Source: Muricoccus nepalensis (lineage in GTDB: Bacteria > Pseudomonadota > Alphaproteobacteria > Acetobacterales > Acetobacteraceae). Taken from it: a DNA stretch of 64,000 nucleotides. Shown here in pieces: positions 52,741 to 64,000 of the stretch. The notes beneath the pieces were generated by a model. That model ran no database searches, was not told where the DNA came from, and was given only the letters and a program-made list of their open reading frames with translations. The translations under genes were made by a program, and so were the position numbers. The stretch lies in assembly GCF_006438825.1 (NCBI RefSeq), contig NZ_RCZP01000029.1:1-64000 (forward strand), written 5' to 3'. Numbering within the stretch: the first letter of the stretch is position 1; each line of letters opens with the position of its first letter.

Positions 52741-52820
52741 TCTACCGTCTCCCGTAAGGGAGCGTCCCCTCACGGTGGACTGGGTGCCAGATACCCGTCC
52801 TGTTGCTTAACCCTTACCGC

Positions 52821-54362
52821 ATGCATGGGTCTGGCCCTTTCGGAACATCACAGGTGACCGAACTCCCCTCCGATCAGAATGCCGACTATCAACAACTTCG
52901 GCTTATCCTGGCGGCCTTGCAGGACGGTGTGATCCTCATCGACCCTGATCAGAGGATCGCCTGGGCCAACAAGGCGGCCCTCCGGATGCATGGTGTGCAA
53001 GAGGTGGCCGAGCTCGGCGCCACCGTCTCCGAGTACCGCACCCGCTTTGAGCTGCGCTATCGCAACCGCCACCGCGTTCCCGAGGGGGCCTACCCGATGG
53101 AGCGGGTGATGGCCGGCGAGGCGTTCGACGAGGTGGTGGTCGAGGTGGCGCCCGCCGGGGAGAACGAGGCGCTCTGGACGCACCGGATCCGCAGCCTCGT
53201 CCTCAACGACACCGCCGGCGTGCCGAACTGCCTCGTGCTGATCCTGAATGACGAGACCGAGCGCTTCGATGCCGAGGAACGCTTTGAGGCCACCTTCAGC
53301 GCGAACCCGGCGCCCGCGGTGATCCTGCGGCTCTCCGACCACCGCCACATCAAGGTGAACCGAGGTTTCCTCGAGATGACCGGCTACGCGGAGGAGCAGG
53401 TGGTCGGCCGCTCAGCCTATGAGATCGATGTTCTGGACGGCGCTGCCCGGCGGGAGTTTGCCGTGGACCGGCTGCAGCAGGGGCGCACCATTCCGCAAAT
53501 GGAGGCCGTGCTGCAGCTTCCTGGGGGCGGCGAGAAACGGGTGGTGGTGGCCGGGCAGCCGATCGAGGTCGGCAATACAAATTGCATGCTTTTCACCTTT
53601 GTCGATGTCGAGCCCCATAAACGCACTGAGGAGGCTCTACGAAAATGCGAGAGCAACTTCGCAGTGGCCTTCCAACTGTCGCCCGTTCCATCCTTCCTCG
53701 CCCGGCGTGTCGGGTGCTGCCTCCTGCGGGCTAACGAGGCGTTTGTGCGGGAGAGCGGCTACACCGCGGTGGAGCTGGCTGGCAGAGGAGCCGGTGAACT
53801 CGGTCTCTGGGCTGACGCGGCAGTGGGGCAGGAGCTGGAGCGACGCCTCGAGCTGCATGGCGGCATACGCGACTTCGCTCTCCAGCTGCGCACCCGGGCG
53901 GGCGACCTGCTGGACCTCCTTGTGTCCGCCGAGGCGGTGAGCATGGGAGAGGGACCCTGCGTGCTGGTGGTGGCGCAGAACGTGGCCGAGCACCGCCGCA
54001 CCGAGGTGGAGATCGCGTCGGCCCTCGAGGCGGTCATGCAGGACACCTCCTGGTTCAGCCGGATGGTGCTGGAGAAGCTCGCCAAGCTGCGACGTCCGGA
54101 CGCTCCCGACGGTGCCATGACCTCCGAGCTCTCCCAACTCTCACCACGCGGGCGCGACGTTCTGGCCCTGGTGTGCCGCGGCATGGCCGATGCGGGGATC
54201 GCCAACAAGCTCGGGCTCTCCCGCAACACGGTCCGCAACCACGTCACGGCGCTCTACCGCAAGACAGGAGTGCGCAACCGAGCGTCCCTGGTCGTCTGGG
54301 CTCGTGAGCGTGGCTTCACGGGTGGCGCGCCGCCCAAGTTGCCTAAGCTCACCAAGGTTTAG
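52821..54362 (+). CDS. PAS-PAS-PAS-LuxR transcription regulator
   Basis: A 513-residue protein. ATG 52821 is chosen; a TTG six codons earlier is possible. There are three PAS domains (about 25-140, 150-265 and 275-395): AALQDGVILIDPDQRIAWAN, ATFSANPAPAVILRLSDHRH, AFQLSPVPSFLARRVGCCLL. The C-terminal LuxR HTH is LSPRGRDVLALVCRGMADAG, then LSRNTVRNHVTALYRKTGV. It is a one-component regulator and lacks kinase or receiver domains. The likely targets are the stress genes around it. Confidence 0.9.
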   Translation: MHGSGPFGTSQVTELPSDQNADYQQLRLILAALQDGVILIDPDQRIAWANKAALRMHGVQEVAELGATVSEYRTRFELRYRNRHRVPEGAYPMERVMAGEAFDEVVVEVAPAGENEALWTHRIRSLVLNDTAGVPNCLVLILNDETERFDAEERFEATFSANPAPAVILRLSDHRHIKVNRGFLEMTGYAEEQVVGRSAYEIDVLDGAARREFAVDRLQQGRTIPQMEAVLQLPGGGEKRVVVAGQPIEVGNTNCMLFTFVDVEPHKRTEEALRKCESNFAVAFQLSPVPSFLARRVGCCLLRANEAFVRESGYTAVELAGRGAGELGLWADAAVGQELERRLELHGGIRDFALQLRTRAGDLLDLLVSAEAVSMGEGPCVLVVAQNVAEHRRTEVEIASALEAVMQDTSWFSRMVLEKLAKLRRPDAPDGAMTSELSQLSPRGRDVLALVCRGMADAGIANKLGLSRNTVRNHVTALYRKTGVRNRASLVVWARERGFTGGAPPKLPKLTKV

Positions 54363-54700: not shown

Positions 54701-54788
54701 GAGATCCACGCCGGTGCGATGGCTCTCTGAGCTCCTCGCTCCGGTGTGAGTGCGCGGCATCCAGAACAAACCTGAAGGAACTTCTATC

Positions 54789-55739
54789 GTGCAAACACGC
54801 GCCACACCTGACGTCTACAATGATGCCTCTAGGGCAACGGCCGTTCTCCCCGAGGGCGCCCCGTCGCTGCCCTCACGTGTGTCCTGGGGCGCGGTGATCG
54901 CCGGCGCCGTCGTTGCGCTGACGGTCGGGCTGATGCTGAACTCTCTCGGTGCCGGCATTGGCGCCACCACGGTGGACGCCGCAGCCCGGGACACGCCCTC
55001 CGCCTCTTCCTTTGGGATTGGAGCCGCCATCTGGGTGCTGGTGTCCAACCTGATCGGCCTTGCGGCGGGCGGCTACGTCGCGGCCCGGCTGTCGGGCACC
55101 TCGGACAACACGGACGGTACGCTGCACGGCCTGGCGGTCTGGGGCACCACCTTCCTGATCTCGGCGGTGCTGCTGGGCAACCTTGTCTCCGGCATTGCCT
55201 CCACCGCAGCCTCCGGCGCCTCCAGCCTAGTCAGCAGCGTCGCGAGTGGGGCCGGTTCGGCGGTGTCCGCCGTGGGTCAGCAGGCCGCTAACCGGACAAG
55301 CACCAGCACGCTGCAGAATGCGGCCCAGGGCTTGGTGGACCGGGTCCAGGGAGCCCTCAGCGGGAGCGGCGGCGCTCCGGCTACGATGACCTCGGACCAG
55401 CGCAAGGCGGAGATAAGCACCTTGGTGACCCGGCGGGTGACCGACGGGCAGCTCTCGGCAGAGGATCGCACCCGCCTGAACGGGCTGGTCGCGGCCGAGT
55501 ACAACATCAGCCCCCAAGACGCTCAGGCGCGGGTGCAGCAGGCTGAGCAGCAGGCGACCCAAACGGCGCGGCAGGCCGAGGAGAAGGCACGCAGTGTGGC
55601 CGATACCGCGGCCTCCGGAGCCGCCAAGGCCGCCTTCGCGGTCTTCGCGATCATGCTGCTGGGCGCGATCGCCTCGGTGCTGGGCGCCCGCCGTGGCACC
55701 CGTGACCTCCTGACGGTCAGGAGCGCCCGTGTCGCCTGA
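54789..55739 (+). CDS. Membrane protein of PhnA-like/YsnF-linked stress family
   Basis: A 316-residue integral membrane protein starting at GTG 54789 with GAAGGA upstream. It has TM helices at about 30-55 (SWGAVIAGAVVALTVGLMLN), 75-100 and 110-135, a long Ser/Ala/Gly-rich loop with a DUF883-like coiled coil (ARVQQAEQQATQTARQAEEK), and one C-terminal TM (FAVFAIMLLGAIASVLGARR). It overlaps the DUF2382 gene downstream by 11 bp. Such proteins are commonly found with DUF2382/CsbD genes; function unknown. Confidence 0.75.
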   Translation: MQTRATPDVYNDASRATAVLPEGAPSLPSRVSWGAVIAGAVVALTVGLMLNSLGAGIGATTVDAAARDTPSASSFGIGAAIWVLVSNLIGLAAGGYVAARLSGTSDNTDGTLHGLAVWGTTFLISAVLLGNLVSGIASTAASGASSLVSSVASGAGSAVSAVGQQAANRTSTSTLQNAAQGLVDRVQGALSGSGGAPATMTSDQRKAEISTLVTRRVTDGQLSAEDRTRLNGLVAAEYNISPQDAQARVQQAEQQATQTARQAEEKARSVADTAASGAAKAAFAVFAIMLLGAIASVLGARRGTRDLLTVRSARVA

Positions 55740-56232
55740 ACAGGGCGCAGGGACGCCCGGCGTCGAGCAGACACGGCCATCGGGCAGCCCACTCGCCAGC
55801 GGAAGGACTGAGGAGGTCATTCCGCTAGTCGAGGAGATCCTCCACCTCGGCAAGCGGGTTGTGGAGACGGGGCGCGTCAGGGTCTCACTGACCACCGAGA
55901 CGGTGGAGGAGACCCTGCGCGAGACCTTGCGCAGCCGACACGCCGAGGTCGAGCACGTGCCCATCGGCCGTGAGGTAAGCCAAGTGCCGGTGACCCGACA
56001 GGAGGGGAACGTGATCATCGTTCCCGTCGTCGAGGAGGTCCTTATCGTCACGAAGAAGCTGGTTCTCAAAGAGGAGATCCACCTGCGCTTCGTCGACAGC
56101 GAGGAGAGCGTGGAGCAGCCCGCCGAACGGCGGGTGCAGCGAGCCACGGTTGAGCGGCTGGTTCCGAAGCAGGCGGGTTCGCCTGCTGGGACGGCCGAGT
56201 GGACCGACAACACGAAAGGACGCCAACAATGA
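55729..56232 (+). CDS. DUF2382 (YsnF/AvaK) domain protein
   Basis: A 167-residue protein starting at GTG 55729. The core EEVIPLVEEILHLGKRVVET, GRVRVSLTTETVEETLRETL and PVTRQEGNVIIVPVVEEVLI is the DUF2382 repeat. Members of the family are stress-induced and often membrane-anchored via another PRC-barrel domain. It overlaps the next gene by 4 bp. Confidence 0.9.
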   Translation: MSPEQGAGTPGVEQTRPSGSPLASGRTEEVIPLVEEILHLGKRVVETGRVRVSLTTETVEETLRETLRSRHAEVEHVPIGREVSQVPVTRQEGNVIIVPVVEEVLIVTKKLVLKEEIHLRFVDSEESVEQPAERRVQRATVERLVPKQAGSPAGTAEWTDNTKGRQQ

Positions 56233-57188
56233 CGCGTACCATCACCGCCATGTTCAGTGCTCGGGCTGCAGCCGACAGGGCTGTCAACGAACTGACCCGC
56301 GAACTGGGTATCGGGAGCGGCCAGGTTCAAGTGTACGCCGCTGAGGCGGCCCCGAATGGCGCGACCACTGCCGGAGCCGCGACGGGGGACACGGGCCTTT
56401 GGGCCTCGCTGAAGGACCTCTTTGTTCCCGACGAGGACCGTACGGCCTACGCCGAGGGCATTCGCCGCGGCAACTACGTGGTCTCGGCCCAGGTTGATGA
56501 GACCATGCTCGATCGGGCCATGGACATCCTCGAGCATAACGGTGCGGTGGACCTGGACGCTCAGGAAGCCGAGTGGCGGCAGTCCGGCTGGACCGGCCAT
56601 CAGGCGGGCGCAACTACGGGGGCGACTGTGGGCACCTCTCCGTCCAATCCCCAACTGGGTGTGGTTGCCACCGGCGCGGCGGTGACCGGTGCGGCCGCAG
56701 CACCGGTTACCGGTCAGACCTCCGTGGCGACCACCCCGTCTCGTACGGGGGCTGAGGAGGTCATCCCGATCGTTGAAGAGCGCATTCAGGTTGGCAAGCG
56801 CGATGTCGAGCGCGGCCGGGTGCGGGTGCGCTCCTACATCGTGGAGACGCCGGTCAGCGAGCAGGTAACGCTGCGTGAGGAGCACGTTGACGTGCAGCGC
56901 CGCGCTGTTGATCGACCGCTGACCGATGCTGACGAGGCCTTCCGCGAGCGGGTCATCGACGCCACCGAGCACTCCGAGCAGGCGGTGGTTGGCAAGGAGG
57001 CGCGCGTTAAGGAGGAGCTGGTGATCCGCAAGGACGTCGCCGAACGCACGGAGACGGTGCAGGACAGCGTTCGCCGGACCGAAGTCGAGGTGGACGATAC
57101 CAGGGGCACGACAGGCACGTCTGCAAGCCGCGCCGTGGACAAGACGCTCGGCACCAACATCAGCGGCGCCAACCCCAACAAGCGTTGA
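56229..57188 (+). CDS. YsnF-like protein with N-terminal alpha/beta domain and DUF2382
   Basis: A 319-residue protein from ATG 56229 (GAAAGGA upstream). The N-terminal domain (TRTITAMFSARAAADRAVNE; AYAEGIRRGNYVVSAQVDET) is the heat-induced-stress YflT-like/general stress domain. A Gly/Thr-rich linker (about 125-175) precedes the C-terminal DUF2382: EEVIPIVEERIQVGKRDVER, then VTLREEHVDVQRRAVDRPLT. It is the last gene of the cluster. Function unknown. Confidence 0.9.
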   Translation: MTRTITAMFSARAAADRAVNELTRELGIGSGQVQVYAAEAAPNGATTAGAATGDTGLWASLKDLFVPDEDRTAYAEGIRRGNYVVSAQVDETMLDRAMDILEHNGAVDLDAQEAEWRQSGWTGHQAGATTGATVGTSPSNPQLGVVATGAAVTGAAAAPVTGQTSVATTPSRTGAEEVIPIVEERIQVGKRDVERGRVRVRSYIVETPVSEQVTLREEHVDVQRRAVDRPLTDADEAFRERVIDATEHSEQAVVGKEARVKEELVIRKDVAERTETVQDSVRRTEVEVDDTRGTTGTSASRAVDKTLGTNISGANPNKR

Positions 57189-58065: not shown

Positions 58066-58338
58066 GCTTCGAGCTAGGAGCATCGATCTAATGAGACAAC
58101 CTCGGTCGCTGACAGCGACGCTACGGCTGACAACAACAGACGTCTTGGCCCACGGCCAACAGTTTCACGATGTTTTCAGTCTCTTGCCCCATGCTGGGCA
58201 CGTCATGTTGCGCGAGAGCGGAACAGCCGTTTGGTCCCACTCGCCCAAGGGGAGAGAAGCGCGTTGCTGTTTGAAGGCGAGCCCGCAGCGCACCTGAACG
58301 CCCGAAAGTCCGGTGGCGGTACCCTGTCAGCTTCGCCA

Positions 58339-59091
58339 ATGCCCCGAGATGGATGTGGCGATTGCTCCAGCGGTTTAGTCGCTCCTTTCCCTTTTTCGAT
58401 GGCTTTCCAACCTGTTGTGGACGTCACGACCGGGCGGGTGCACGCCTACGAGGCTCTGGTCCGTGGGCCAGCGGGAGAGCCGGCGGCAGCCGTACTGGCG
58501 CAGGTCACCCGCGCCAACCGCTACGCGTTTGACCAGTCCTGTCGCGTCAAAGCTATCGAGCTGGCGTCGAGCTTGGGAATGGCGGCGAGCGGCGCCACCC
58601 TGTCCATCAACTTCATGCCCGGTGCCATGTACCGCCCCGAGAACTGCGTGCGTGCCACCCTGGCCGCGGCGCGCCGGCACCGTTTCCCACTAAACCGGCT
58701 GCAGTTCGAGGTTACCGAGGGCGAGAAAGTGGGCGACCCGGATCACCTCACCGCCATTTTTCGCGAGTACCGGGCGCGCGGCTTCCGTGTCGCCATCGAT
58801 GACTTCGGCGCGGGCTACGCCGGCCTCGGCCTGCTCGCCCGCTTCCAGCCCGACGTCATCAAGCTCGACATGGATCTGATCCGCGGCCTAGACAACGACC
58901 GCGTCCGCCGCTCCATTGTGGGCGCTGTGCTGTCAGTCTGCGCCGAACTCAACATCGCCGTGGTGGCGGAAGGTGTAGAAACCCGCGCGGAGCTGGACGC
59001 GCTCCGCGCTCTCGGTGTCCGTCTCGTGCAGGGTTACCTGTTCGCCCGCCCCGCCTTCGAGCAGCTGCCGCCTGTCTCTACCCTCGCCTGA
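58339..59091 (+). CDS. EAL-domain c-di-GMP phosphodiesterase
   Basis: A 250-residue protein; the start is taken at ATG 58339, although the frame is open further upstream. All catalytic motifs are present: YEALVRGP, the NFMPGAMYRP strand, LQFEVTEGEKV, AIDDFGAGYAGLGLL, VIKLDMDLIRGLD, VVAEGVET and LVQGYLFARP. There is no input domain other than a short N-terminal part, so it should be a cytoplasmic, active EAL phosphodiesterase. It converges with the PAS-GGDEF gene, pairing synthesis and breakdown of c-di-GMP in one locus. Confidence 0.9.
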   Translation: MPRDGCGDCSSGLVAPFPFSMAFQPVVDVTTGRVHAYEALVRGPAGEPAAAVLAQVTRANRYAFDQSCRVKAIELASSLGMAASGATLSINFMPGAMYRPENCVRATLAAARRHRFPLNRLQFEVTEGEKVGDPDHLTAIFREYRARGFRVAIDDFGAGYAGLGLLARFQPDVIKLDMDLIRGLDNDRVRRSIVGAVLSVCAELNIAVVAEGVETRAELDALRALGVRLVQGYLFARPAFEQLPPVSTLA

Positions 59092-59157: not shown

Positions 59158-60498
59158 TCAGGAGGCGGCGCGCACCCGCGTCACCGGTGCCTCTGCTCCA
59201 GCGACGCACACGCGGTTCCTGCCATCACGCTTGGCTCGGTAGAGCGCTGCGTCAGCATCAGCCAGCAGTTTCTCCAGGGTTGACGCGTCCGGCGTGAGCG
59301 TAGCCAGGCCAAAGGAGGCGGTGAGCACCAAGACAGTCTCACCCTTCTGGGCAGGCGTACCGGCGACCTGCCGACGCAACTGCTCAGCAACCTTTGCGCC
59401 CGTCTCGATGTCGGCGCCAGGTAGCAGGACGCCGAACTCCTCCCCACCCAAGCGACACAGCAGGCCCCCCTCCGGGAGCGCGTCGCGCAGCGCCCTGGCG
59501 ACAGTGCGCAGAGCCTCGTCACCGGCGGCATGGCCGTGACAGTCATTCACCCGTTTGAAGTGGTCCACGTCGACCATCAGCACGGCAGCGGAGCCCGCGC
59601 TGTCTCGAGCGCGTCGCACGAGGTCTATGCCCTGTTCGAAAAAGGCGCGCCGGTTCAGTGCGCCAGTCAAGTGGTCAGTGGTTAGAGCCCGCCGTAACTC
59701 CTCGGCGGTCGAGCGGCGCTCCGTCGTGTCGCGCACCACCATCAGGAAACGCGTGCTGCCGCCTTCGCCCTCTGGGAGAGCGGAGACAATGCAGGTGCCC
59801 CAGAAGCGCGAGCCGTCAGCCCGTGCACGCCACCCGTCGTCGAGGTGCCAGCCGTCGCGCAGCGACACCGCTAGTCGTTCCAGCAGCGCGTCCTGGCTGT
59901 TACCGCCCCTCTCGGCAGGCGTAACGAGGCCTGCCGCCGAGGCGCCCAGGGCAGAGGCCGCGGCGTACCCGAACAACCGCTCGCCGGACGAGTTCCATTC
60001 TGAGACACGCCCTTCAGGGTCGAGGCCAAGCATGGCGTAGTCGTTAGCACCCTGTACCAACGCCGCGAACCATGCGTCACTCTCCCGCAGGCGCCGCTCG
60101 TTGGCTACTTGGGCCGAGATGTCCGACAACACCGCCATATGCCGGTCGGCGTCCATGCGCACCACTGTCAGTGACAGCACGCGCGGATCACGACCATCGG
60201 GCGCTGGGCCAAGATGCAGGCGTAGGCCGTCGCACAACGTTCCACGTGCCGGCTGATCGTCGCGCAGCAGCCGACGCAGCTCGGGGGCGCAAGGCGCCAA
60301 AGCATCGAGCAGGTTGGAGAACATCGTGCCTGGCGGCAGCAGCGGCATCACCAGGCACGAGAAGGCAGGGTTGAGCATGAGCACGGTGCCGTCGGCAGCG
60401 AACTGCGCCATGCCGTGCGGGCAGGTATACAGGAACCGGAGCAGCGCCTCGTACTCGGCATCCGCGTCGTCCTCGGAGGAAGCCTCAGCGGGGTTCAA
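59158..60498 (-). CDS. PAS-PAS-GGDEF diguanylate cyclase of PYP-linked module
   Basis: A 446-residue soluble protein. The first PAS (EYEALLRFLYTCPHGMAQFA; VLMLNPAFSCLVMPLLPPGT) is related to the N-terminus of the protein at 61024-62103. A second PAS covers about 145-270 (NDYAMLGLDPEGRVSEWNSS). The GGDEF domain has TTDHLTGALNRRAFFEQGID and the active site RLGGEEFGVLLPG; no RxxD inhibitory site precedes it. It starts immediately after the stop of the PYP-like gene at 60499, so the two are coupled. Confidence 0.92.
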   Translation of the reverse strand: MNPAEASSEDDADAEYEALLRFLYTCPHGMAQFAADGTVLMLNPAFSCLVMPLLPPGTMFSNLLDALAPCAPELRRLLRDDQPARGTLCDGLRLHLGPAPDGRDPRVLSLTVVRMDADRHMAVLSDISAQVANERRLRESDAWFAALVQGANDYAMLGLDPEGRVSEWNSSGERLFGYAAASALGASAAGLVTPAERGGNSQDALLERLAVSLRDGWHLDDGWRARADGSRFWGTCIVSALPEGEGGSTRFLMVVRDTTERRSTAEELRRALTTDHLTGALNRRAFFEQGIDLVRRARDSAGSAAVLMVDVDHFKRVNDCHGHAAGDEALRTVARALRDALPEGGLLCRLGGEEFGVLLPGADIETGAKVAEQLRRQVAGTPAQKGETVLVLTASFGLATLTPDASTLEKLLADADAALYRAKRDGRNRVCVAGAEAPVTRVRAAS

Positions 60499-60858
60499 CT
60501 AGCTGCGCTCGACCAGCACGTAGCGGCGTCGGTGACCGGGTGCGCGCAGCAGCCGCAGCCGCACTGGTGTGACCCGCATACGAAAGGTGAGGACGTAGGG
60601 AAGCATGCTGTCCAGCGCTTCCTCGCGCTCCAGCCGTTCAGCCACCATAGAGTTGTTCATGCAAGGGGCGACGTCGAGGAAGAAGTGGCGGCCGAGCACG
60701 CGGTCTCGCGTCAGCCTGGCGGCCGTGGCCTCGTAGACATTGTACACCTCCACCATGCCGCTGCCATCAAGGCCGATTACCCCAAAGGGCAGCGTGTCCA
60801 GCATGCCGGCCGGTGCGGCGTCCAGCGCCTCCAGTAGGGCAGCATCGTCGAACTTCAT
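60499..60858 (-). CDS. PYP-like PAS protein 2 (with chromophore-type Cys)
   Basis: A 119-residue single PAS domain resembling photoactive yellow protein: LPFGVIGLDGSGMVEVYNVY, then EATAARLTRDRVLGRHFF, DVAPCMNNSMV and RLRLLRAPGHRRRYVLVERS. Tyr39, Glu43 and Cys66 have the spacing of PYP Tyr42, Glu46 and Cys69, the last being the p-coumaroyl attachment residue. No tyrosine ammonia lyase or coumarate ligase gene is in the window, so holoprotein formation is unproven. It is coupled to the PAS-PAS-GGDEF gene. Confidence 0.85.
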   Translation of the reverse strand: MKFDDAALLEALDAAPAGMLDTLPFGVIGLDGSGMVEVYNVYEATAARLTRDRVLGRHFFLDVAPCMNNSMVAERLEREEALDSMLPYVLTFRMRVTPVRLRLLRAPGHRRRYVLVERS

Positions 60859-61023
60859 GCGGCAATCACCCGAGATGGATGCCGGAAGCCGCCGGCAATC
60901 ACCAAGGCTACCTTCCCATGCTTTACAACCCCTCTACGCCGAGAGGCTTCAGCGAAGACATGGGCGCCAAGGGGTAAGAAAGCAGCCTTCGCCGTTTGCG
61001 GCTCCTTCAAGTGAGGGTACGCC

Positions 61024-62103
61024 TCAGACCAGGCTTGCGGTCCTGACGCGCTCTGCGATGCGGCTGCCGAATTCCGTGATGAACACGGTGCGCACGGCCT
61101 GCATGGCGTGGGTAAGGATGCGGTTCTGATGATCCAGGTTGCTGTCCGAGAACCAGACAATGAAGCAGCTACCCTTGCCAACTTTCAGGATGTCCAACGG
61201 GCCGAGAAGCGGCTTGATGATGGCTTCGGCCAGCATCATCGCCCTCGATTCAATCCGCGGCCAGTCGGCGCCAACAGCCGCGCTAAGAGCCGAGAGGCTA
61301 ATCATTCTGACTTGGCTGCCACCTCGCTGGGTAGCAGGCGTGGTCTGACCGGATGTGCTAGGTTTCGGAACAAGTGTGACAACTCGCAGGTGCCGGGAGT
61401 CTGCATCATCGAGAATGCAGGAACTCATCGTCGCGCGGAAGCGTCGTCCCCCCTTGGCTAGAGCCTCTATCTCAATTTCGTAGGCTTTGCTATCAAGGGA
61501 CTGCTGCGACCGGGCAGCTTCCGTCATGCCGCTCGTGTCGGGCAGAAGCGCGTCAATATTCAGGCCGACAATACTCTTGGCGTCGTATCCCATGAGGTTC
61601 TGGAAAGCGACGTTGCTGAGCAGGATGAAGCCGTCCGCTCTGATGATGACAACCGGCGTGTTCAGCCGCATGAACACCGACGCCAGTAGCCGTTGCGCGT
61701 CGGTCCGCCTGACGACCTCGCGCCGAGCCTCGGTCAGGTCGGTTACGTTCTGCACGACCGCCATCAGCGTGGTGCTGTTAATCTTGTTGATGTCGAGCAT
61801 GAGCACCGTGCGCGAGCTCGGGATCGCGATCTGCATCTGATCGAAAATCTGCCCGGCGGGGTGTCCGAACCGTTCCACGTGCGCCTGGAGGTCGGGGGCA
61901 AGGCCCTCAAACAGCCGGTAGAGATCCGACATGGCGCCGTCGGTCGCGAGCGGCATGAGCAGCTGCGCCGCTGTCGGATTGGCCATGTCAATCGTGCCGT
62001 CCGGGCGGAATTTGATAATGCCAACCGGCGCCAGGTAGAGGAACTCGATTAGGGCTTCGTAGGAAGAAGCGATGTCCGGCTCTTCGTACAGATCGCTGTC
62101 CAT
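61024..62103 (-). CDS. PAS-PAS protein with unknown C-terminal domain, PYP-linked
   Basis: A 359-residue soluble protein. PAS1 at about 10-130 (YEALIEFLYLAPVGIIKFRP) is homologous to PAS1 of the neighbouring GGDEF protein. PAS2 lies at about 140-255 (RLNTPVVIIRADGFILLSNV; KGGRRFRATMSSCILDD). The last ~85 residues (SQVRMISLSALSAAVGADWP; PLLGPLDILKVGKGSCFIVW) form a domain not recognised, in the place where the sister protein has GGDEF. It resembles neither a kinase nor a DNA-binding domain. Confidence 0.85.
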   Translation of the reverse strand: MDSDLYEEPDIASSYEALIEFLYLAPVGIIKFRPDGTIDMANPTAAQLLMPLATDGAMSDLYRLFEGLAPDLQAHVERFGHPAGQIFDQMQIAIPSSRTVLMLDINKINSTTLMAVVQNVTDLTEARREVVRRTDAQRLLASVFMRLNTPVVIIRADGFILLSNVAFQNLMGYDAKSIVGLNIDALLPDTSGMTEAARSQQSLDSKAYEIEIEALAKGGRRFRATMSSCILDDADSRHLRVVTLVPKPSTSGQTTPATQRGGSQVRMISLSALSAAVGADWPRIESRAMMLAEAIIKPLLGPLDILKVGKGSCFIVWFSDSNLDHQNRILTHAMQAVRTVFITEFGSRIAERVRTASLV

Positions 62104-62106
62104 AAC

Positions 62107-62556
62107 TTATGCTTTCCGTTCGACGATCAGATACATGCGCTTTCCCGCCGGTCGCTTGAGCAGTCGCAATCTCACCTTCTTGGGTGACATCCGGAGCGTC
62201 AGGACGTAGTCGATCGTGTCGTCGATCTCGGCCTCGGTCGCAAACCGATGGGCTACCATAAAGTTGTTCATGCACGGCGCCACAGCGTTGAAGAAGTGTC
62301 GGCCAGTCACACGGCTGGGTGTGAGGCCGGCCAGCTTGCCCTCGGCTACGTTGTAGTGCTCGACGGTTGCGTCAGTCGCCATTGCAATGACGCCAAAGGA
62401 CAGTGCGTCCAGCTCCTCCGCGCTCGCACCTTCCAGCCATACGAACAGGGCGGGATCGTTGGTTGTCGTGGGAAGGGAGCGCTGCTCGACCGTCTCGAGA
62501 GCCGGAGTGGCGGAAGCCAGGTGCAAGGGGGAGCCCACCGGGTGCGTCTCCGACAA
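62107..62556 (-). CDS. PYP-like PAS protein 1 (with chromophore-type Cys)
   Basis: A 149-residue protein with a ~45-residue disordered N-terminal arm and a PYP-like domain: LSFGVIAMATDATVEHYNVA, then EGKLAGLTPSRVTGRHFF, AVAPCMNNFMV and PAGKRMYLIVERKA. Tyr68, Glu72 and Cys95 match PYP Tyr42, Glu46 and Cys69 in spacing (27 residues from Tyr to Cys). The stop is 3 bp before the start of the PAS-PAS gene at 62103. Both PYP-like genes have the same APCMNN motif. Confidence 0.85.
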   Translation of the reverse strand: MSETHPVGSPLHLASATPALETVEQRSLPTTTNDPALFVWLEGASAEELDALSFGVIAMATDATVEHYNVAEGKLAGLTPSRVTGRHFFNAVAPCMNNFMVAHRFATEAEIDDTIDYVLTLRMSPKKVRLRLLKRPAGKRMYLIVERKA

Positions 62557-62828
62557 AGGCGCGGCTCAGGGGGCGGCCGCCAAGGCGTGCGCTTGTAGAG
62601 AAGGAGAATGTCCGAGGTCTTAACAGCGTGCTTGTTTCTCTTGCTGAGCTTCGCTGAGAAGAACGCGGCTGCAATCAGCCGGATCGAGCATCGTTGCTAT
62701 GTCAAAATAACCGACTGAAATACTCGGACGTCTTAGCAAATTTTTAGAGTGCGGCTGTCAGGGTGATGGGCAAGTGCACCCGGCACGCGCCGGGAGCCCT
62801 CAGATCGACCGGTTGGAGACGCGCCCGC

Positions 62829-64000
62829 ATGAGCTACCTGACAAACAGGCTTCAGCAGGCTCGTGGCTATACCCGCCGCATGGGCATTGTTACCCGCCTG
62901 CTGCTGGCTTCACTGCTCGGCATCGTGGTGGCCGTGGTGGCGGTCCAGGCCTGGACGCTGCGGGTGGCCTACGAGGCACAGATGCAGGCGGCACAGAGCG
63001 CGTTGCGCACCAACCTTGCGGTGCTGCGGAACGAGCTGAGTGGGATGGGTGGCGACTGGCGCCTGACGGCGGATGGGAAGCTCTCCTTGGGAGGGCAGCC
63101 GCTAAACGGCCGTGAGGATCTGGTCGACAAGGTGGGCCGCCTCACGGGCGGCGTTGCCACCATCTTCGCCGGCGATACGCGGGTGGCGACCAACATCCAG
63201 CGCCCGGATGGCCAGCGCGCTGTCGGCACCAAGCTGGCGGCCGGACCTGCCCGCGAGGCGGTGATCGGGCGCGGTGAGACATACCAAGGAACGGCGGAGA
63301 TTCTGGGTGCCCCGTACCTGACGATCTACGAGCCCATCAAGGACGCAGCCGGTCAGTCCGCTGGCATCCTTTTCGTGGGGGTATCCCTGGCCGATGTTCA
63401 GCAAGCACTGAACAAAATGGTCCATCAGGGCCTGATAGCCGGACTGGCAGTCATCCTGGTGGTCGGCGGCGCCCGGTGGCTCGCGCTGCGGTCCTCCATG
63501 CGCCCGCTCAGCGGGCTTGCGGCCAGCGTTCGGTCCATCGCTGCCGGTGACCTTGACCAGCCTGCCCCTTGTGCGGATCGCACCGACCAGCTTGGCCAGA
63601 TTGGCCGCGCCATCGAGGTACTCCGTGAGGGAGCTCTGCGGGCGCGTCAGGCGGAGAAGGAGGCAGCGGCCGAGCGCGCCGCAAAGGATCGCCGGGGAGA
63701 AGCCATGGAGCGGCTGACTACCGACTTCGGCACCACGGTCTCTGGCGTCCTCGTCAAGCTGACGAGCTCGGCCGACGGCATGCGGTCCGCGGCCGATGGC
63801 ATGGCTCAGGCCGCGGAGAAGACCAAGCTCGAAATGGAGAGTACAGCGGCGGACGCGAATACTTCCTCGCGGAGCCTTGCCACGGTCGCAGCCGCGACCG
63901 AGGAGCTAACCGCCAGCGTAGGCGAGATCTCCCGGCAGGTAAGCCAGGCTGCGGCCGCGGCCCAGGACGCGGTGGTGCAGGCGCGGAGCACGGACACGAC
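62829..64000 (+). CDS. Methyl-accepting chemotaxis protein (Cache, HAMP), partial
   Basis: The 3' end is beyond the window; 390 residues are visible. TM1 at about 20-42 (RLLLASLLGIVVAVVAVQAW), a periplasmic Cache-like domain (about 45-205, with DLVDKVGRLTGGVATIFAGD and YLTIYEPIKDAAGQSAGILF), and TM2 at about 205-225 are followed by HAMP (LRSSMRPLSGLAASVRSIAA) and the start of the coiled-coil signalling domain (AAATEELTASVGEISRQV). The methylation and hairpin tip lie to the right of the edge. The start is ATG 62829. Confidence 0.93.
   Translation, partial: MSYLTNRLQQARGYTRRMGIVTRLLLASLLGIVVAVVAVQAWTLRVAYEAQMQAAQSALRTNLAVLRNELSGMGGDWRLTADGKLSLGGQPLNGREDLVDKVGRLTGGVATIFAGDTRVATNIQRPDGQRAVGTKLAAGPAREAVIGRGETYQGTAEILGAPYLTIYEPIKDAAGQSAGILFVGVSLADVQQALNKMVHQGLIAGLAVILVVGGARWLALRSSMRPLSGLAASVRSIAAGDLDQPAPCADRTDQLGQIGRAIEVLREGALRARQAEKEAAAERAAKDRRGEAMERLTTDFGTTVSGVLVKLTSSADGMRSAADGMAQAAEKTKLEMESTAADANTSSRSLATVAAATEELTASVGEISRQVSQAAAAAQDAVVQARSTDT

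Follow-up and report, generated by a model that had tools for sequence, protein, structure and literature searches.

A domain shared by the partners of two adjacent clade C-type photoactive yellow protein homologues in Muricoccus nepalensis is a candidate input site for cyclic di-GMP control

The first 64,000 nucleotides of contig NZ_RCZP01000029.1 of Muricoccus nepalensis (assembly GCF_006438825.1), called the window here, carry two modules side by side, each made of a small photoactive yellow protein (PYP) homologue of clade C type (PYP1 and PYP2) and a partner protein encoded directly behind it (PAR1 and PAR2). The new element at this locus is an N-terminal domain common to both partners and unknown to Pfam, called the receiver here. 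We propose, with a probability of about 0.6, that the receiver is the site at which each PYP docks and controls the output of its partner. An earlier note on this DNA had pointed out two PYP-like genes, each followed by a two-PAS protein, with an EAL gene facing them, and these positions and this arrangement were found as claimed.

Both sensor genes matched the TIGR02373 (photo_yellow) profile (PYP1, E value of 2.9e-21 and 75.8 bits; PYP2, 2.8e-18 and 66.2 bits), with scores under the curated cutoff of 143.05 that place them outside the equivalog. This model recovers only about 20% of PYP homologues, according to a survey of the family (PMC9664959). In phmmer searches the top PDB sequence match of both was the PYP domain of Ppr (E values of 1.9e-14 and 8.6e-13), with PYP entries next. 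These matches lie far above chance and bear out the PYP homology and Tyr-Glu-Cys spacing described in the earlier note. Tyr68, Glu72, and Cys95 of PYP1 align to Tyr42, Glu46, and Cys69, and PYP2 keeps the same triad. In the published description of clade C, Phe92, Phe96, and Trp119 are not conserved and Met100 is (PMC9664959). At positions 92, 96, 119, and 100, PYP1 has Ile, Leu, Tyr, and Met and PYP2 has Leu, Leu, Tyr, and Met, so that by residue pattern both show features of clade C. Across 88 aligned PYP rows, including two rows not of clade C type (the second PYPs of loci L083 and L119), Phe was present at 92 in 3, Phe at 96 in 2, Trp at 119 in 2, and Met at 100 in all 88. Relatives keep the triad: it was present in 88/88 rows, although the Cys was a requirement of one of the two patterns used to find them, and by eye in 13/13 clade C PYPs of a family sample based on hidden Markov model (HMM) searches.

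Known families did not account for the receiver. Pfam PAS families matched 1 of 31 members (PAS_4, E value of 0.0075) and neither of the two window copies, and full-length PAR1 had a weak PAS_8 stretch at residues 25 to 49 (E value of 0.04). Searches of Pfam, NCBIfam, and PHROG returned no family, with chance-like non-PAS matches of at most 16 bits, and a profile search of PDB sequences gave a single match with an E value of 0.86. The structural model of the PAR1 receiver had a predicted local distance difference test (pLDDT) score of 90.9 and a PAS fold, and by VIA it was superimposed on 2ykf (Z of 11.1, 2.4 Å, 95 residues) and on the PYP structure 1otd (Z of 10.0, 3.0 Å, 97 residues). From this model the receiver is predicted to form a separate family of domains with a PAS fold. 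The earlier note had assigned two PAS domains to each partner. The second stands, since it passes the Pfam cutoff; the first matches no PAS family alone and is a PAS domain by predicted fold. Comparison of receiver and PYP profiles gave a weak match (P of 0.0014, probability of 17%), and for this reason the receiver is not claimed to be a PYP.

The evidence that carries the proposal is the recurrence of the receiver behind clade C PYPs. When genome contigs were scanned with five clade C-type PYPs, a receiver protein lay directly behind the PYP in 79/80 loci, these being the best 80 of 245 relatives. The sole exception, in Burkholderia sp. 4M9327F10 (L089:5327-7546), has an intact PYP and a receiver split by an IS21-type element of about 2 kb, whose two open reading frames (ORFs) match IstB_IS21 and the rve integrase core; this locus is a natural knockout of the PYP partner. 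In all but one of 85 PYP-receiver pairs (those of the 79 scan loci, the two of the window, and L024, L039, and L040), the matched receiver domain began between −25 and 70 nt from the PYP stop; in the remaining pair the distance was 192 nt. The close coupling of each PYP with its partner, as put forward in the earlier note, is therefore upheld both by genes that nearly touch and by a pairing that recurs in relatives.

Coupling was also followed from the side of the genomes. HMM searches of 160 genomes of the same family yielded 32 PYPs and 14 receivers, and a gap in scores between 112.7 and 87.0 allowed a cut at 100 bits that classed 13/32 PYPs as clade C type. A receiver lay no more than 300 nt downstream of 12/13 of these, compared to 0/19 other PYPs. 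The thirteenth, in G487, is the first gene of a PYP-PYP-receiver set (L177:3425-5893), in which the second PYP is divergent (112.7 bits) and keeps Tyr, Glu, and Cys. Counted by genome, a receiver was present in 7/7 genomes with a clade C PYP versus 1/153 others (Fisher P of 1.7e-11, with relatedness ignored). In 33 further genomes, which were selected through their PYP loci, it lay behind 35/35 clade C PYPs (one via the near fragment of an insertion sequence-split gene) versus 0/11 other PYPs, and no receiver was present in 15 fetched control loci, whose 16 PYPs do not belong to clade C. The coupling spans Acetobacteraceae, Sphingomonas, Methylobacteriaceae, Burkholderiales, and Pseudohongiella. 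Wider samples gave a receiver in 1/337 genomes of the class and 1/249 of the phylum, the M. nepalensis genome both times; because these samples are sparse, and because at most 13 to 28 candidates per genome were scored in the sample searches (those of the family and of domain X, described below, included), the counts indicate rarity rather than absence.

What follows the receiver varies. Among the first partners (n = 85), 75 carry GGDEF, 1 is a kinase, 7 are of the PAR1 type, and 2 are receiver-PAS proteins alone. One first partner (L116) has EAL besides GGDEF, and in L093:2433-4397 the receiver behind a clade C-type PYP is fused to HisKA, HATPase, and REC domains, giving a two-component output. 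In two Massilia loci (L080:5388-6218 and L098:5378-6196), the first partner is a receiver-PAS protein without GGDEF, followed by a receiver-GGDEF-EAL protein. A second receiver protein occurred in 34 loci, and all 34 that were scanned carried GGDEF-EAL. With outputs ranging over GGDEF, GGDEF-EAL, kinase, and dead GGDEF-like domains, the receiver is the constant.

At the window locus, PAR2 is predicted from its intact GGEEF active-site motif to be a diguanylate cyclase. Product inhibition through an RxxD site is common in diguanylate cyclases and not obligatory; PAR2 has PEGG at that site, while a pattern search found RxxD in 50/74 GGDEF partners. The EAL gene scored 343.5 bits against the RimA model, below its cutoff of 430, and by eye it has EALVR, N, E, DDFG, K, EGVET, and QGY, which we take to be the catalytic residue set. 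Stand-alone RimA-like EAL genes 50 to 58% identical to it were found at 23/83 other module loci (24/84 with the window), and since such genes recur, the window EAL is part of a recurrent neighborhood. A receiver-GGDEF-EAL second protein was present in 34/84 loci, none of which has a stand-alone EAL too, and 26/84 had neither kind within the fetched flank, which was short in some. Enzymes that make and break cyclic di-GMP (c-di-GMP) are thus commonly found together at PYP-receiver modules. The c-di-GMP output with an EAL neighbor noted earlier is supported by the strength of both domain matches (Table 1) and by the return of the EAL gene in relatives.

The window genome (6.5 Mb, 152 contigs) encodes five PYP homologues, all keeping Tyr, Glu, and Cys. 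Contig C63 (L024) holds the third PYP of clade C type, paired with another PAR1-type partner; the identity is 63% for the PYP and 71% for the partner. Contig C88 (L023:4366-7128) carries a Ppr-like PYP-phytochrome-kinase fusion beside another PAS kinase-like ORF, and on contig C64 (L025) a PYP adjoins a long ORF with kinase features by eye. About 6 kb from the C64 PYP, a 172-amino-acid (aa) stretch (L025:13483-14001) is 71.5% identical to a gene of the window resembling methyl-accepting chemotaxis proteins (MCPs).

In a tree of the clade C-type rows and seven other PYPs (119 columns, many forks unresolved), PYP1 and six other PAR1-type PYPs formed one clade (support of 100/99), as did their receivers (100/100). 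Within it the PYP1 pair and the C63 copies were sisters (98/81; receivers, 93/65). PYP2 grouped with Belnapia moabensis (95/86), and the receiver of its pair did likewise (98/98). PYP and receiver trees thus place both window pairs alike, and each pair seems to be ancient and to have been passed on as a unit. A recent tandem duplication was considered for the window and rejected on the basis of the tree. Calling the module duplicated, as in the earlier note, is misleading, because the sister of the PYP1 pair sits on C63 and the two window pairs belong to different lineages. The nearest relative locus, in a metagenome-assembled genome of an uncultured Acetobacteraceae member (G476; L182), has PYP-PAR1-PYP-PAR2-ligase-EAL on a single strand, with an EAL 50% identical to that of the window and a ligase scoring 292 bits against TIGR02372, under the cutoff of 334.7. 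The window has the same order, with the ligase absent there and the EAL inverted. Because the second PYP of G476 is not grouped with PYP2, the two loci may lack strict orthology in their second slot.

Table 1. Features of the PYP-receiver locus in the window
Feature	Position	Strand	Evidence
PYP1, clade C-type PYP homologue, 149 aa	62107..62556	(-)	TIGR02373, PDB phmmer, alignment
PAR1 (partner 1), 359 aa: receiver - PAS - degenerate GGDEF-like domain	61024..62103	(-)	
PAR1 receiver domain; no Pfam family, predicted PAS fold	61729..62103	(-)	
PAR1 second PAS domain (PAS_9)	61384..61659	(-)	E 3.5e-07
PAR1 C-terminal domain X; probably GGDEF-derived, without GG(D/E)EF	61027..61314	(-)	
PYP2, clade C-type PYP homologue with the full triad, 119 aa	60499..60858	(-)	TIGR02373, PDB phmmer, alignment
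PAR2 (partner 2), 446 aa: receiver - PAS - GGDEF	59158..60498	(-)	
PAR2 receiver domain	60106..60498	(-)	Receiver HMM E 8.2e-42; without Pfam match
PAR2 second PAS domain	59728..60042	(-)	PAS E 2.6e-08
PAR2 GGDEF domain, motif GGEEF, without RxxD inhibitory site	59212..59679	(-)	Pfam E 7.6e-41
Stand-alone EAL phosphodiesterase, RimA-like, convergent to the PYP/PAR genes	58231..59091	(+)	EAL E 1.7e-50
Cache-HAMP, MCP-like gene, divergent from PYP1	62763-63998, to window end		

Within each pair the genes are tightly packed. The PAR1 ATG follows the PYP1 stop by 3 nt, and the TTG start of PAR2 abuts the PYP2 stop with no gap. Farther out, a sensory gene near the locus encodes a multi-PAS protein with a LuxR-type helix-turn-helix (52803-54362), and two adjacent DUF2382 genes (55729-57188) are preceded by a gene without a clear family (54750-55739).

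Under the proposed mechanism, each small soluble PYP would be made together with a partner whose receiver docks it. The state of the PYP sensor would alter the receiver, the middle PAS domain would relay the change, and the output would change. PAR2, with its GGDEF lacking the RxxD product-inhibition site, would make c-di-GMP, and the neighboring EAL protein would degrade it. PAR1, with a putatively dead GGDEF-like domain, would serve as a regulator or a decoy. We infer PYP-receiver binding, the direction of control, and the role of PAR1 from these patterns. If true, c-di-GMP would gain a compact light switch made of two parts. Few photoreceptors have been studied as thoroughly as PYP, and for the step by which the free protein hands on its signal the receiver offers a concrete candidate partner, simple enough to be examined with a pair of purified proteins.

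Several observations weigh against this proposal. For some receivers, the 2 kb upstream hold no clade C PYP. This applies to 2/14 in the family sample (G487 and G500) and, in the 33 genomes, to 2/49 matches, of which one is the distal half of the insertion sequence-split gene and the other an additional receiver protein that G758 encodes on a different contig. Burkholderiales were covered only by biased sampling, the PAR1 model is of poor quality except in domain X, and searches of the window genome, a draft that is 98.2% complete, turned up no tyrosine ammonia-lyase (TAL) and no dedicated p-coumarate-CoA ligase. In addition, over 74 pairs PYP distances correlated with those of the receiver at 0.859 and with those of GGDEF at 0.860. 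Coevolution specific to the receiver was thus tested and not found, and since the two correlations are equal, covariation does not point to a contact site. These correlations and the few receivers lacking a PYP fit an alternative in which the PYPs are co-expressed with their partners without touching them, either answering a common stimulus or acting on some other protein while the receiver senses a ligand of its own. The MCP-like gene that flanks the window pair could be such a protein, and the similar stretch near the C64 PYP favors it as well, but an MCP motif was seen in only 2/84 module loci. The near 1:1 coupling of PYP and receiver over several lineages with differing outputs also weighs against this alternative, which we consider quite unlikely.

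A separate question is what the PYPs sense. The TIGR02372 ligase model reached at least 180 bits in 23/40 genomes searched, 5 of them over the curated cutoff, and the ligase lay no more than 5 kb from a clade C PYP in 16/40, in 2 of which it was nearer another PYP. This proximity ties clade C PYPs to p-coumarate, and blue light acting via p-coumaric acid is the likeliest signal in relatives. (A ligase count by regular expression, 24/84 loci, was dropped in favor of TIGR02372 because it catches any AMP-binding enzyme.) The M. nepalensis genome has HutH as the sole aromatic ammonia lyase found (650.6 bits; cutoff of 539) and one TIGR02372 match at an E value of 1e-20 or below, which at 98 bits is far under the cutoff. 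With no TAL and no dedicated ligase detected, light sensing in this strain is putative. Its PYPs might instead be chromophore-free, either working as subunits that are blind to light or sensing p-coumarate from plants or lichens, with photochemistry lost along with the ligase; in G476, a ligase and an EAL gene come immediately after the two pairs. Had the chromophore been lost for good, however, the triad would not be expected in all five PYP homologues, the assembly is a draft, and other CoA ligases may serve; we regard this alternative as somewhat doubtful. The kept triad and the genes not found would be compatible if the strain imported p-coumarate or employed a different ligase. PAR1 raises a similar choice. 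The earlier note had it end in an unknown domain, and this domain X has neither a Pfam match nor a GG(D/E)EF motif; it was modeled with fair confidence (pLDDT block means of 71 to 89 over residues 271 to 359) in a strand-helix-strand-strand-helix order. Searches of the PDB by sequence gave nothing useful, and in the structure searches with the PAR1 model PAS and LOV entries took up the Foldseek and VIA hit lists, so that the absence of GGDEF from them is uninformative. PAR1 could be an ordinary output protein whose domain X has a separate activity with no link to c-di-GMP: X is conserved within PAR1-type proteins and was found in 48/385 genomes of the class (E value of 0.001 or below), the scanned copies belong to no Pfam family, and all 24 ORFs inspected (L191-L214) are without GG[DE]EF. 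Set against this, 3/8 scanned X proteins had subthreshold GGDEF matches over the X stretch (best E value of 1e-4, 22.6 bits, cutoff of 23.8), and hhalign against partner GGDEFs placed the X hairpin on the GGEEF hairpin, weakly (P of 0.0024, probability of 12%). An independent activity is unlikely in our judgment. The likeliest reading, weakly supported, is that X is a degenerate half of a GGDEF domain.

A broader and improbable extension of the docking proposal can be imagined. Clade C PYPs could be trans-acting light subunits, and the receiver an evolved dock that was shuffled as a plug-in relay onto cyclases, cyclase-phosphodiesterases, kinases, and dead cyclases. The window would then hold two non-interchangeable pairs, one with a live and one with a dead cyclase, the second PYP tuning the first via the decoy. 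With the ligase gone, holoprotein might form only on supply of p-coumarate by a plant or lichen host, and the circuit would be a gate that requires both light and a host phenolic.

The receiver recurs behind clade C PYPs and is therefore a good candidate for the missing signaling partner of this sensor. Abstracts of recent accounts call the PYP signal transduction chain an important gap (PMC12826048) and describe the partner of Halorhodospira halophila PYP as still unidentified (2026, PMC13250908); the receiver would not alone settle the partner of that PYP, which belongs to clade A. The circuit is not undescribed, as the earlier note had it, because it has been published as a hypothesis: clade C PYPs adjoin GGDEF/EAL genes and are proposed to modulate these proteins and c-di-GMP (Xing et al. 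2022, PMC9664959), and among 113 predicted pyp operons analyzed, GGDEF was listed in 29 and EAL in 22 (Table 2 of Dohmen et al. 2025, PMC12826048), with more than one PYP in 16% of genomes. The new elements are the receiver domain, how closely it accompanies clade C PYPs, the variety of outputs it is joined to, and PAR1 as a partner. A shared PYP partner domain was not described in the open-license literature searched, which comprised parts of the main texts and abstracts of the papers cited here and the titles and opening lines of abstracts of the others listed.

Compared to published clade C PYPs, those of the window likewise keep the triad and Met100, replace Phe92, Phe96, and Trp119, and adjoin GGDEF/EAL genes; unlike that account, whose available text mentions none of these, the window has a shared partner domain, a dead GGDEF-like partner, and two adjacent modules (PMC9664959). 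In the operon survey, partners are sorted by named output domains, and its available part does not describe an N-terminal receiver (PMC12826048). Idiomarina loihiensis PYP, for which light-reduced biofilm is reported in both papers (PMC9664959, PMC12826048), is also a single-domain PYP adjoining a GGDEF protein; unlike those of the window, it is of clade A (PMC9664959). The Ppr and Ppd fusions (PYP-phytochrome-kinase or -GGDEF/EAL) resemble the window modules in feeding a PYP input to a kinase or c-di-GMP output, but there the PYP is fused in cis, whereas the window has a separate PYP with a dedicated partner domain.

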